Part shown: positions 4,350 to 44,851 of the stretch, one piece after another
Numbering within the stretch: the first letter of the stretch is position 1
How the letters are laid out: the number at the start of each line of letters is the position of its first letter
NCBI GenBank assembly: GCA_018830865.1
Contig: JAHJRN010000028.1
Coordinates: 1-54,819 of the forward strand
Source: Patescibacteria group bacterium
Lineage (GTDB): Bacteria > Patescibacteriota > Patescibacteriia > 2-12-FULL-60-25
Direction of reading: 5' to 3'
DNA: 54,819 nt
The notes under the pieces: generated by a model
What the model saw: only the letters and a program-made list of their open reading frames with translations
What the model was told of the DNA's origin: nothing
Database searches by the model: none
Program-made: the position numbers and the translations under genes

Positions 4350-4912
4350 ACAGTATGATCATCACCCTCTCCGGGGCACCCGGTTCCGGCAAGACCTCGG
4401 TCGCTAAGATTGTCGCCAGCCGTCTCGGCGTCCCGTTCCACTCCGTCGGCGACATCCGCGGAAAAATGGCGCTCGATCGCGGCATCACGCTCGACGAACT
4501 GAACCATATCGGCGAGGGCGATCGCACCACCGATACCGAGGCGGACGATATCCAGACAAAACTCGGCGAGACCGCGGGGTCGTTCGTCATCGAGGGGCGG
4601 CTCTCGTGGCATTTCATCCCGAACTCCTTCAAGGTCTACCTCGCCTGCGATCCGCACGAGGCCGCACGCAGGGTCTTTGAATCCCGCCGGACGGAAGACG
4701 GGCGCGACGACGAACCGGCATACGCGTCCGTCGAGGAGGCGGAGAAGGCTATCGCCGCCCGCGTGGCGTCAGACGTCCTCCGCTACCGCACGCACTACGG
4801 CATCGATTACCGCGACCCCGCGCATTTCGACCTCACCCTCGATACGACGAGCGTCCCCGGACCGGAAGCTGTGGCAGACAAGGTCCTCGCTGCGCTCCCC
4901 GCCGGGTCTTGA
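4346..4912 (+). CDS. Cytidylate-kinase-like P-loop kinase
   Basis: The product is a 188-residue nucleoside-monophosphate kinase. The Walker A loop GAPGSGKT occupies about residues 10-17, followed by the [14 protein letters not shown] segment typical of the shorter, archaeal-type cytidylate kinases and the [18 protein letters not shown] strand. The probable reaction is ATP + (d)CMP to ADP + (d)CDP in the cytoplasm; specificity is inferred from family resemblance. The first ATG overlaps the stop of the pseudouridine synthase gene; a second in-frame ATG at 4355 is possible. Its stop codon lies inside the -35 box of the rplS promoter. Another small-molecule or adenylate-type kinase is the main alternative. 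Confidence 0.75.
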
Positions 4913-4937
4913 CGCAAAGGGCGTCATTCGCTATTAT
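4909..4937 (+). promoter_or_regulatory. Promoter of rplS
   Basis: TTGACG (4909-4914), exact 17-bp spacer, TATTAT (4932-4937). The predicted start site is near 4944, leaving about a 10-nt leader before ATG 4954. The -35 overlaps the stop codon of the kinase gene. Confidence 0.75.
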
Positions 4938-4953
4938 CAGGCCACATTTCGAT

Positions 4954-5310
4954 ATGCCCGAACACATCTATCAGATCATCACGCCAGCCGACATCCGCTC
5001 CGGCATGGTGCTTCGCATCCACCAAAAGATCCGCGAGACCAACACCAAGGGGGAAGAGAAAGAGCGTATCCAGGTGTTCGAGGGCACCGTCATCAACCTG
5101 CGGGGCGCCGGAAACCAGAAGACCATGACCGTGCGCAAGATCTCGAACGGCGTCGGCGTCGAGAAGATTTTTCCGATTGCCCTGCCGACCATCGCGAAGG
5201 TCGAACTCGTGAAGCAACTCAAGGTCCGTCGCAAGGTCCTCTCCCACATCCGCACCTCCAAGCGCCGGATGAAGGAGCTGAAGCCGAAGGTCAAGCCGCA
5301 GGCCGCGTAA
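4954..5310 (+). CDS. rplS: 50S ribosomal protein L19 (bL19)
   Basis: The 118-residue product matches bL19 throughout: [36 protein letters not shown] and the basic C-terminal [12 protein letters not shown]19 sits at the interface of the ribosomal subunits. ATG 4954 is chosen although the frame extends upstream, because the N-terminus then matches family length and because the promoter at 4909-4937 would place any earlier ATG outside the mRNA. No Shine-Dalgarno is present, consistent with a near-leaderless message. In many bacteria rplS follows trmD, but here trmD is 40 kb away in this window. A strong hairpin follows. Confidence 0.95.
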
Positions 5311-42064: not shown

Positions 42065-42973
42065 TCAGTATCCAAATATCTCGTCCAGTCTCCCACTTTT
42101 AAGCATGCTTAAATTTATAACATAGTCGATTGAATTCATAGCCGCCTCTAGAGAATTCTTCATTTTGAGCCAGCCCGGTCCATCTGTTACCCAGACAAAA
42201 CGCACGTTACTATGTTTTAAATACTTATTTAAATCGATATACTCTCTAGCAATTGAATTCGGCTTTGATCCCGAACTTGTATAACAATTAACCTCGAACA
42301 GTGTGAGCTTATTATGCGGTCTATCAAACACTGCAAAATCAAATCTTCTCTCTCCCCGTCTTTTCAAAAAAACCTCATGAAGAACAAGTGCGGTCCCAAA
42401 TTTATCATTAATTTTTGAAGTTGTGGCCTCTGGCAAATATTCAAGTGACCGCTTCTTACAGAAATCCGCAATAATTGTGTCAGCTAATTTTTCCATGATC
42501 TTCCCCGTACGATTCTTTCTAGCATTCGAATCAAGTCCTACTTCAACACCGAACACATAATCTTCAAGCCTTATAATCTTATTAGATTGAAAAATATCTC
42601 TAATGCCAGACTCGGTAAAAAAATCCCACATCGCAACCTTATCTTCAACTGAAAGCTTAACTTTCTTATCAAAAAGATGACTTCGCTTTTCAGGAAGTAG
42701 TGTATGCCTATCGATTATCGGTAATTCATCGATCTTCTTTTTTCTAGTCGCTATTAATACTAGCAATGCACTCCTTGTCTCGGGATATTTCTCAATTATT
42801 TGAAAAAACTTTTTCTCAAACTCATCCTGCTCCCCAATTAACGAATTAAGAATGTTGAGTTGAATTTTGAGTTCGAATGCTTTTTTGTAGCTATTTTCAA
42901 AATCAGCAAAATAATCCCATGTAATTATGGATTTACGAAGCGTCTGTATGAATCCGTCTAAGTCGTTCTTCAT
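42065..42973 (-). CDS. DpnII/MboI-like type II restriction endonuclease
   Basis: The 302-residue protein resembles the DpnII family, which cuts 5'-GATC. A PD-(D/E)xK nuclease core is seen in GERRFDFAVFDRPHNKLTLF followed by EVNCYTSSGSK (Asp, then Glu-x-Asn/Lys). The preceding segment EVGLDSNARKNRTGKIMEKL and the YIDLNKYLK segment fit the family. It is markedly AT-rich (stretches of A and T, ATA and AAA codons) against its GC-rich neighbours, a sign of horizontal acquisition. The ATG overlaps the methylase stop (42973-42970), so translation is coupled and methylase comes first. Recognition of GATC is inferred from the family. Confidence 0.82.
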   Translation of the reverse strand: MKNDLDGFIQTLRKSIITWDYFADFENSYKKAFELKIQLNILNSLIGEQDEFEKKFFQIIEKYPETRSALLVLIATRKKKIDELPIIDRHTLLPEKRSHLFDKKVKLSVEDKVAMWDFFTESGIRDIFQSNKIIRLEDYVFGVEVGLDSNARKNRTGKIMEKLADTIIADFCKKRSLEYLPEATTSKINDKFGTALVLHEVFLKRRGERRFDFAVFDRPHNKLTLFEVNCYTSSGSKPNSIAREYIDLNKYLKHSNVRFVWVTDGPGWLKMKNSLEAAMNSIDYVINLSMLKSGRLDEIFGY

Positions 42974-43761
42974 TGCAGAATGTCCTTTATTCTCATTATC
43001 GAAAGATCCAAATATTTACCTTCTGTATCAAGACCGATAAATGTTCTTTGACTTTGAGTTGCCGCTATACCTGTCGTCGAACTCCCGGTAAATGGATCGA
43101 GAACCAAATCCCCCCTCTTCGTACTCGCCAAAACAACACGATTAAGCAGAGCGAGTGGCTTTTGGGTTGGATGCTTCCCAAATTTCTTTTCCTCTGGTTT
43201 TGGAGTGCCAATCGCCCAAACTGAACGCATCTGTTTCATGGGCCTCTTTATAGAGTCTTCGGGCCACTCCCCCTCTTTCATCGTCCGATAATCGAAATGA
43301 TGCTTTGCCTTCTTCTCCTTCCTCGCCCAAATCAGCGACTCATGACTCGCGGTAAAATATCGACAGCTCAAATTCGGTGAAGCATTCGGCTTGAACCACG
43401 CGATGTCATTCAGTATGTGGTACCCCAACGCCTGGATAGCGTGGCCACACTGATAGATCGAGTGGTACGTTCCACTTACCCAGAGCGTACCCTCTGGCTT
43501 TAGAACACGATGACATGCCTCAAGCCAAGCGTAGTGAAAATCGTAGTCATCCTTGAACCCCTTACTCTTATCCCAGTCACCCTTATCAACCTTCGCCCTT
43601 CGTCCGGCATGAACGGTGAACCCGCCATTTGAGAGGTTGTACGGCGGGTCAGCAAAAATCATGTCCACCGACTCGGGTTCCATCTGTCCCATGAGCCCGA
43701 TAGAATCTCCGAGGTAGAGGGCGAAGTCCTTATGCTTAAAATAGGGCTTATTTTGGATCAT
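42970..43761 (-). CDS. DpnA-like DNA adenine N6-methyltransferase
   Basis: The product (263 residues from ATG 43761) is a beta-class adenine methylase with permuted motifs: catalytic DPPYNLSNGG near the N-terminus, SAM-binding DPFTGSSTTGIAA near the C-terminus. KGDWDKSKGF, PNLSCRYFTASHESLIWARK and KHPTQKPLALLNRVVLASTK match DpnA (the second methylase of the Streptococcus DpnII system), which also methylates single-stranded DNA. The main double-strand methylase DpnM is not present, so this single enzyme must protect the host. ATG 43773 is an alternative start. GC content is intermediate. GATC sites are plentiful across the window, so no avoidance is visible. Confidence 0.88.
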   Translation of the reverse strand: MIQNKPYFKHKDFALYLGDSIGLMGQMEPESVDMIFADPPYNLSNGGFTVHAGRRAKVDKGDWDKSKGFKDDYDFHYAWLEACHRVLKPEGTLWVSGTYHSIYQCGHAIQALGYHILNDIAWFKPNASPNLSCRYFTASHESLIWARKEKKAKHHFDYRTMKEGEWPEDSIKRPMKQMRSVWAIGTPKPEEKKFGKHPTQKPLALLNRVVLASTKRGDLVLDPFTGSSTTGIAATQSQRTFIGLDTEGKYLDLSIMRIKDILQ

Positions 43762-43815
43762 TTTTGTATACATTCCCAAAAGCGATCGGATCGTACCACT
43801 AACGGAATAATAGAT
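43756..43815 (-). promoter_or_regulatory. Restriction-modification promoter region with four GATC sites
   Basis: TATTAT (43811-43806 on the minus strand) is a likely -10, with a poor -35. GATC occurs at 43756-43759, 43784-43787, 43789-43792 and 43812-43815, the last directly adjoining the -10. Methylation-dependent feedback on the operon is possible. Confidence 0.4.
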
Positions 43816-43843
43816 CACAACCTAGCGACGTTTTCATAACAAA

Positions 43844-43861
43844 CACCGCCCTTGCAGGCGG
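43844..43861 (-). terminator. Terminator of tRNA-Glu
   Basis: ACCGCC/GGCGGT with a 6-nt loop, followed on the minus strand by GTTTGTT, 10 nt behind the tRNA. Confidence 0.6.
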
Positions 43862-43870
43862 TCTTTGTTC

Positions 43871-43945
43871 TGGTAGCCCCTAGGGGAATCGAACCCCTGT
43901 TAACGGCTTGAAAAGCCGCTGTCCTAACCATTAGACGAAGGGGCC
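43871..43945 (-). tRNA. tRNA-Glu (anticodon UUC), CCA encoded
   Basis: The minus strand folds with acceptor GGCCCCT/AGGGGCT (one G-U pair), discriminator A and CCA. The anticodon stem GCGGC/GCCGT encloses TTTTCAA, so the anticodon is UUC. T-arm AGGGG/CCCCT encloses TTCGATT. Confidence 0.94.
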
Positions 43946-43989: not shown

Positions 43990-44340
43990 CTAGAGCAATC
44001 GTTTTACCGTCAACGGCATGCCTTTTGGATGGTCGACCCGAATGCTCGGCCTGACGGAGAGCAAACCTAGAGAGTTGAGTGTATTGACCTCTACGGCGTT
44101 CGCTTCGTCGCGGACCGGGATGAACGTGACGTACTGTGGGTCATCGCCGGACTCCCAATCGATCTCCTCGTAGAACTCCTTGAGGTAGAGCTGACCGCAC
44201 GCGCAGCACCGGACGAGACGTCGGCTGAAGTGCGAATCTTCTTCGAACGTCCGGATGACTTCGATGGATCTGAATATGTCGTCGCGGGTCAGCGGTTCCA
44301 GGGTCCAGAGGTGGCATTTGGGGATGAGGTGTCCGTTCAT
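43990..44340 (-). CDS. Hypothetical protein, 116 aa, with a CxxC-like motif
   Basis: The small cytoplasmic protein contains RLVRCCACGQLYLKEFYEEI, where CCACG could form half of a zinc site, plus Cys9 in PKCHLW. No signal peptide or membrane helix. I do not recognise the family. It starts 20 nt behind a strong terminator hairpin that ends a structured leader with its own consensus promoter (44589-44561), an arrangement typical of genes controlled by transcription attenuation. The ligand or signal is unknown, and the protein gives no hint. Confidence 0.65.
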   Translation of the reverse strand: MNGHLIPKCHLWTLEPLTRDDIFRSIEVIRTFEEDSHFSRRLVRCCACGQLYLKEFYEEIDWESGDDPQYVTFIPVRDEANAVEVNTLNSLGLLSVRPSIRVDHPKGMPLTVKRLL

Positions 44341-44359
44341 AGGGCTATCACGTTAGATG

Positions 44360-44555
44360 AATGAAAACGAAAAAGCGGCTGAGAGATGGTATCCAGCACA
44401 GAAGGCTGAATGAAATCTCCCAACCGCTAGCGGTCAGTCGCACGACCCATCTGGCTCCCGGCAGATTTCCCCGGTCGCCTATCCCGACAGCGCGTCGGAA
44501 AGGATCATGTGGCCCATTGGTCTGCGGGCGACAGTGTTGTCTGCAAGGAACGACA
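44360..44555 (-). ncRNA. Structured leader RNA or small RNA, no known family
   Basis: Transcription from the promoter at 44589-44561 should start near 44554 and meet a strong terminator at 44428-44374 followed by TTTTTCGTTTTC, giving an RNA of about 190 nt with no convincing frame. Within it GTCGCC and GGCGAC enclose a hairpin CCGAC/GTCGG (loop GCGCT), and ATCTG/CAGAT forms another. A segment GAAATCT (plus-strand 44463-44469) is complementary to AGATTTC (plus-strand 44412-44418), which overlaps the left arm of the terminator and could act as anti-terminator. The protein gene at 44340 follows directly. It could be a riboswitch-like attenuator or a free small RNA. No known riboswitch, 6S, SRP or tmRNA signature was found. 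Confidence 0.6.
44374..44428 (-). terminator. Strong intrinsic terminator inside the leader
   Basis: A 14-bp stem (AGCGGTTGGGAGAT with ATCTCTCAGCCGCT, two wobble pairs) holds a 27-nt loop with an inner CAGC/GCTG hairpin, followed by TTTTTCGTTTTC. Confidence 0.8.
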
Positions 44556-44560
44556 CTCCA

Positions 44561-44589
44561 AATATACCGTTTTTCGGGGGTTTTGTCAA
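44561..44589 (-). promoter_or_regulatory. Consensus promoter of the leader RNA
   Basis: On the minus strand TTGACA (44589-44584), exact 17-bp spacer, TATATT (44566-44561). It is the closest match to the sigma70 consensus in the window. Confidence 0.85.
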
Positions 44590-44612
44590 GAAAAACATAC
44601 CTCTCTCCTACC

Positions 44613-44822
44613 ATCCGACAGGCTACGGCTGACGTGAAGGTCCTTCGACTCGTCGGACTCGCTCAGGAAGCGAATGGCTTATATAAGAGTCGCGTCCCAT
44701 ACATATAAGAGTCGCGTCCCGAGGTCATCCGAGGGATCTTCAAATCTACCGTCTCTATCCGACAGGCTACGGCTTACTTGAAGGTCCTTCGACTCCGCTT
44801 CGCTTCACTCAGGAAGCGACTA
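44613..44822. repeat. Intergenic composite repeat, two partial direct copies
   Basis: ATCCGACAGGCTACGGCT followed by GAAGGTCCTTCGACTC and CTCAGGAAGCGA occurs at 44613-44675 and again at 44757-44820. Between them is GCGTCCCGAGGT...CCGAGGGATCTTC (44706-44742), also found at 45614-45644. AGAGTCGCGTCCC is present twice near 44685-44718. No gene is seen in this gap apart from the leader RNA promoter. Confidence 0.75.
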
Positions 44823-44851
44823 CCCTGTTTCTCCGTCGGGAGATGAGAGTG

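Follow-up and report, generated by a model that had tools for sequence, protein, structure and literature searches.

Several described systems resemble a leader RNA encoded on the minus strand of the window, a stretch of 54,819 nucleotides from a Patescibacteria group bacterium (GCA_018830865.1, contig JAHJRN010000028.1). Transcriptional ON riboswitches in which a pseudoknot withholds a terminator arm are similar to it in several respects. Both have a junction domain whose loops are invariant and which itself forms the antiterminator, followed by an intrinsic terminator and a coherent gene set downstream. Unlike these riboswitches, the leader RNA matches no Rfam class in sequence or structure. 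The ykkC group, with its guanidine-I, PRPP and ppGpp riboswitches, is similar in its possible ligand and in its metabolic theme of alarmones. However, copies of the leader RNA were found nearly all in Patescibacteria and have no Rfam match. The architecture of the ykkC group, as described, also differs. T-box leaders likewise carry a terminator/antiterminator switch in a 5' leader, whereas the gene set found here is not related to amino acids and the leader RNA again has no Rfam match. The last likeness is in the proteins. HD proteins encoded behind the RNA have the small alarmone hydrolases (SAHs) and MESH1 as their best PDB matches. Unlike in the known enzymes, here the HD domain shares a gene or operon with small accessory domains, and the RNA stands in front.

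The window and the relatives of the leader were searched against all 4227 Rfam families under gathering and E-value thresholds, and no class was matched. This includes the covariance models of the T-box leaders, the ykkC group and, at the window leader, 6S RNA. Chance matches to miRNA-like hairpins and to a viral snoRNA were set aside. An earlier note on this DNA, made from the sequence alone, could not place the leader in a known class and had named a match to a known small RNA such as 6S as evidence against its reading; it was right on the former, and no such match was seen. In the open-access papers searched, no description of the leader RNA was found, and no riboswitch class special to Patescibacteria was reported. 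The leader RNA is outside every described class tested, and it is predicted to work like a riboswitch or attenuator. It is most likely a cis-acting transcription attenuator belonging to a new riboswitch class, a reading of sequence evidence to which a probability of about three in four can be given.

The leader lies behind a sigma70-type promoter at 44561-44589 (minus strand, as are all features of the leader). It consists of a -35 hexamer, TTGACA (44584-44589), a 17-bp spacer and a -10 hexamer, TATATT (44561-44566), just as the earlier note had described it. In the relatives, the -35 and -10 hexamers score a mean of 9.4 of 12 matches, against 6.9 in shuffled flanks, and the -10 hexamer is mostly found about 20-30 nt upstream of the first hairpin, P0. 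With its start placed from the promoter, the leader reaches to the end of the terminator T tract (44370-44553), and it includes a covariance-model match at 44371-44533 (E 4.6e-35). Its fold of -81.6 kcal/mol beats 200 of 200 dinucleotide shuffles (z = -3.2). The earlier description of the leader as foldable and frame-free is thus half correct, as an 88-codon open reading frame (44348-44614) is open across it. It is not a conserved gene, as is shown by the indels and stops in the relatives.

The intrinsic terminator (44370-44427) has an outer stem of 13 bp (44415-44427 with 44375-44387), a 6-bp inner stem and a T-rich tail, with a free energy of -31.2 kcal/mol. The terminator and its tail had been recognized in the earlier note, which gave the stem as 14 bp and the distance to the ATG as 20 nt. 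The end of the T tract (44370) and the ATG (44340) are in fact 29 nt apart.

Four helices precede the terminator. P0 is the 5' hairpin (44512-44529). P1, the closing stem of a three-way junction (44502-44509 with 44441-44448), encloses the hairpins P2 (44482-44501) and P3 (44453-44479), and the near-invariant loop of P3 contains GAAATCT (44463-44469). Double changes were found at 5 of 6 pairs in P0 (55 distinct sequences), 9 of 9 in P1, 6 of 6 in P2 and 5 of 7 in P3. Two alignments were used, A3 (15 sequences, plain MAFFT) and A4 (58 copies, 55 distinct). For P0-P3 and the terminator in A4, 94.5% of cells are paired, compared with 36-46% when the partners are slid by one to three columns. Double-change cells number 454, where shuffling gives a mean of 123, and the covariation score is 0.53 against 0.20; A4 leans towards the model structure, to which it was fitted, and A3, aligned by MAFFT only, gives the same picture. 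RNAalifold, run on the relatives, agrees with P0-P3 and the terminator. The 5' leader contains a conserved, covarying aptamer-like domain, as is characteristic of riboswitches.

Two further elements involve the left arm of the terminator. The antiterminator hairpin, P4 (44422-44435), follows P1, takes in the first part of this arm and pairs GACCGC (44430-44435) with GCGGTT (44422-44427). It is paired in 91.9% of cells, with changes on both sides at two pairs. The pseudoknot, PK (44412-44469), pairs the P3 loop GAAATCT with AGATTTC (44412-44418), and it is this full complementarity, overlapping the left arm, that the earlier note had pointed out. A 7-nt complementarity in about 190 nt could alone be due to chance, and it is the retention of PK in 55 of 55 distinct sequences that places it beyond chance. 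Four variants use G-U pairs, and a single double change, GAGGTCT/AGATCTC, occurs in a copy (L032) that was found by the model and not by the sequence pattern. Only one double change is seen because the PK sequence is nearly invariant, and this invariance is partly by construction because most copies came from a pattern that fixes the PK bases. The full-length covariance model, R2, was also built mainly from such copies.

When transcripts are cut just after AGATTTC, before the right arm of the terminator, the minimum-energy fold includes P4 in 50 of 52; for full leaders it includes the terminator in 52 of 52. P4 and PK on one side and the terminator on the other are mutually exclusive because they need the same bases. 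The two exclusive folds that the earlier note had proposed are both preserved across the relatives. The leader can be predicted to alternate between these folds, one of which would be able to control expression, as in a riboswitch.

From these features we infer that the leader regulates in living cells, in which direction it would switch and what kind of signal it would read. The nascent leader would first fold P0, the three-way junction P1/P2/P3 and P4. The P3 loop would then grip the left arm of the terminator through PK, the arm would be unavailable and RNA polymerase would read through into the gene. When the junction and PK are not stabilized, the left and right arms would pair into the 13-bp terminator and transcription would stop before the gene. 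A diffusible signal, probably a small molecule, would stabilize the junction and PK, making the leader an ON switch. The existence of such a signal is suggested by the junction, which is elaborate and strongly conserved, and by its invariant loops. A plausible signal would be one connected with the substrate of the usually controlled RelA/SpoT-type HD hydrolases, for example an alarmone.

The conserved RNA is about 160 nt long, and about 55 distinct sequences of it were collected across many lineages of Patescibacteria. Among 38 related genomes searched at the DNA level, 8 have a match, the genome of the window included. In an alignment of these first eight matches, for which one sequence was trimmed (L008, with an insertion in the terminator loop shortened), the leader is conserved and the flanks are not. 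R1, a covariance model of the conserved part, gave matches in 27 of the 381 genomes searched in the class, of which three to five are weak and three are apparently false. Weak matches in G055, G155, G370, G431, G836 and G850 were dropped as they have only the terminator or nothing in common with the leader. Matches on the reverse strand (for example, 44309-44431, plus) were also dropped and are a product of terminator symmetry. With R2, matches were obtained in 8 of the 41 genomes searched in the family and in a few from other classes. When 84,980 species genomes were scanned with the sequence pattern, 48 stretches were recovered. Nearly all of them bear the titles of Patescibacteria lineages (Uhr-, Magasanik-, Taylor-, Nomura-, Peregrini-, Falkow-, Staskawicz-, Moraniibacteria, and others), and one viral contig was among the matches. 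RNA-bearing genomes have one true copy apiece. Neighbors in the same genus are often without the RNA, and thus it is an accessory element.

Some single copies are of interest in their own right. One copy (L087) is on a viral-classed contig, IMGVR_UViG_3300025323_000435 (about 4879-5044, minus), and precedes a gene for a 79-aa protein. Two others are on contigs titled Micavibrio (L061, DYDB01000001.1) and Gastranaerophilales (L069, JAQVCB010000067.1). These are either misbinned Patescibacteria contigs or cases of horizontal transfer. The copy with the PK double change, L032 (genome G079), is a diverged relative in which both the pseudoknot and P4 show compensatory changes and the gene context differs, and it may be at the edge of a wider RNA family.

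Proteins encoded downstream of the RNA form a single homology cluster of 39, and those encoded upstream form none. The cluster is composed of RelA/SpoT-type HD domains and small domains that are found alone, in the same operon or fused together. At least one match to six domain profiles lies downstream on the same strand within 1.6 kb in 47 of 52 usable loci. In the control, taken upstream or on the opposite strand, the count is 1 of 54. The profiles of the accessory domains were derived from these loci themselves, and the HD family is independent of them. An HD domain is among the matches in 38 of the 52 loci. The usable loci with no member of the set are L031, L043, L078, L087 and L109. Of 29 RNA-bearing genomes, 20 have a match to the independent Pfam profile HD_4 directly behind the RNA, although such matches occur at only 1-5 places per genome. 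In some loci, including the window, no HD gene is behind the RNA, and the six-profile survey found no single protein domain common to all loci. The architecture of a riboswitch or other attenuator, as suggested in the earlier note, is supported by these comparisons. The sequence, the structure and the position before a coherent gene set are conserved, and the homologues, which the note had proposed to collect, covary and keep their place upstream of related genes.

The downstream HD proteins match Pfam HD_4 and the RelA/SpoT family. Their best PDB matches are 7qoe, 4yf1, 7qoc and MESH1 (3nr1), and the HD, ED and D motifs are kept in most of them. By domain and motif they belong with the small alarmone hydrolases, and hydrolysis is their predicted activity. 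Models of defense systems gave no match to the downstream proteins.

In the window, the gene behind the RNA (43990-44340, minus) encodes a 116-aa protein with a C-x2-C domain, here called CHLW, and relatives of it are also downstream of the RNA elsewhere. Searches of Pfam, NCBIfam and PADLOC gave no match to this protein, and the PDB gave no notable one. Its fold is predicted with confidence (pLDDT 91), but structural comparison found no clear relative (Foldseek best E 0.12; VIA-align Z at most 5.0). The protein belongs to the accessory domains of the RNA-linked gene set. Relatives are found alone behind the RNA in L040, L062, L069 and L074, and as the C-terminus of HD proteins in L039, L082 and L086. 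A CHLW profile matched 8 of the 381 genomes of the class, all of them among the 27 RNA-bearing ones (hypergeometric 2e-10, or 4e-7 in the family alone, both optimistic given the relatedness of the genomes). In 7 of the 8 genomes the gene is directly behind the RNA, and with the co-occurrence this indicates that the protein and the RNA travel together. In genome G007, a CHLW gene (C48:45252-45599, L130) has no RNA in front, and the RNA of this genome is elsewhere, before an HD gene.

Other explanations of the leader can be weighed against this evidence. With its strong promoter and strong terminator, a full-length form that folds into the terminated state, and one copy per genome in a patchy distribution, the leader could be taken for a trans-acting small RNA whose downstream genes are incidental neighbors. 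This is improbable, as a same-strand gene of the set follows in 47 of 52 loci behind unrelated upstream genes. In addition, the terminator retains the complementarity of its left arm to the upstream loop and to P4, and the terminator of a plain small RNA needs neither. Ribosome stalling on a leader peptide is highly improbable. The 88-codon frame is open through the window copy, but no start codon or frame is kept among the relatives, in which indels of any length occur in P2 and in the loop of P4. Control by a protein or a tRNA (protein-dependent antitermination, autoregulation or a T-box-like mechanism) disputes only the small-molecule part of the proposal, not attenuation itself, and is unlikely. 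In its favor, the products include small C-x2-C domains, a macromolecule could be bound by the invariant loops, and CHLW is found only in RNA-bearing genomes and once unlinked, as if it depended on the RNA. However, PK already accounts for the GAAATCT loop, Rfam gives no T-box match and the loci share no product domain. As no protein domain is common to all loci, a diffusible signal is preferred over autoregulation by one product.

For a riboswitch that reads such a signal, an alarmone or a related nucleotide is the leading guess for the ligand, given the link to alarmone-type hydrolases. The RNA would then bind (p)ppGpp or (p)ppApp and turn on the hydrolase that destroys it. The matches of the HD proteins to RelA/SpoT hydrolase domains, SAHs and MESH1 and their retained motifs are consistent with this, as is the finding that 56 of the 58 genomes searched have a RelA_SpoT synthetase domain. 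The guess is kept tentative because SAHs also take NADPH as a substrate (PMC9765508), and because in two genomes, G717 and G744, which possess the RNA with an HD gene behind it, no synthetase domain was detected, which weakens the case for ppGpp. The loci without an HD gene behind the RNA, the window among them, also count against it. More doubtful is the full proposal, in which a Patescibacteria riboswitch class senses an alarmone or other hyperphosphorylated nucleotide and switches on a co-inherited module that removes it. This module would consist of a small alarmone hydrolase and interchangeable small domains such as the CHLW protein. The leader RNA is a concrete, testable candidate control element in a mostly uncultured group and is tied to alarmone-type hydrolases. 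It also defines a set of co-traveling genes, among them one for a protein domain confined to the RNA-bearing genomes. Should the ligand prove to be an alarmone, the RNA would be a new way for bacteria to read such a signal directly.

Many copies have a second short conserved block in the first 60 nt past the terminator, either CAAAGGTCGAACG or TAGTCCGCAAC...GGGAGCATTAGCAGAT. It was seen in L049, L075, L052, L048, L089, L084 and L087, and in L079, L086, L082, L055 and L015, and is absent from the window copy. The block would be present only on the read-through mRNA and may be a second element acting at the level of translation. In the window, the 116-aa gene is directly followed at 42065-43945 by a tRNA-Glu and the methylase and endonuclease of a DpnII-type restriction-modification pair, an arrangement that resembles an accessory island situated at a tRNA. 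Immediately upstream of the promoter, at 44620-44830, there are duplicated stretches, with GTCGAAGGACCTTCA...GCCGTAGCCTGTCGGAT present twice and GGGACGCGACTCTTATAT also present twice.
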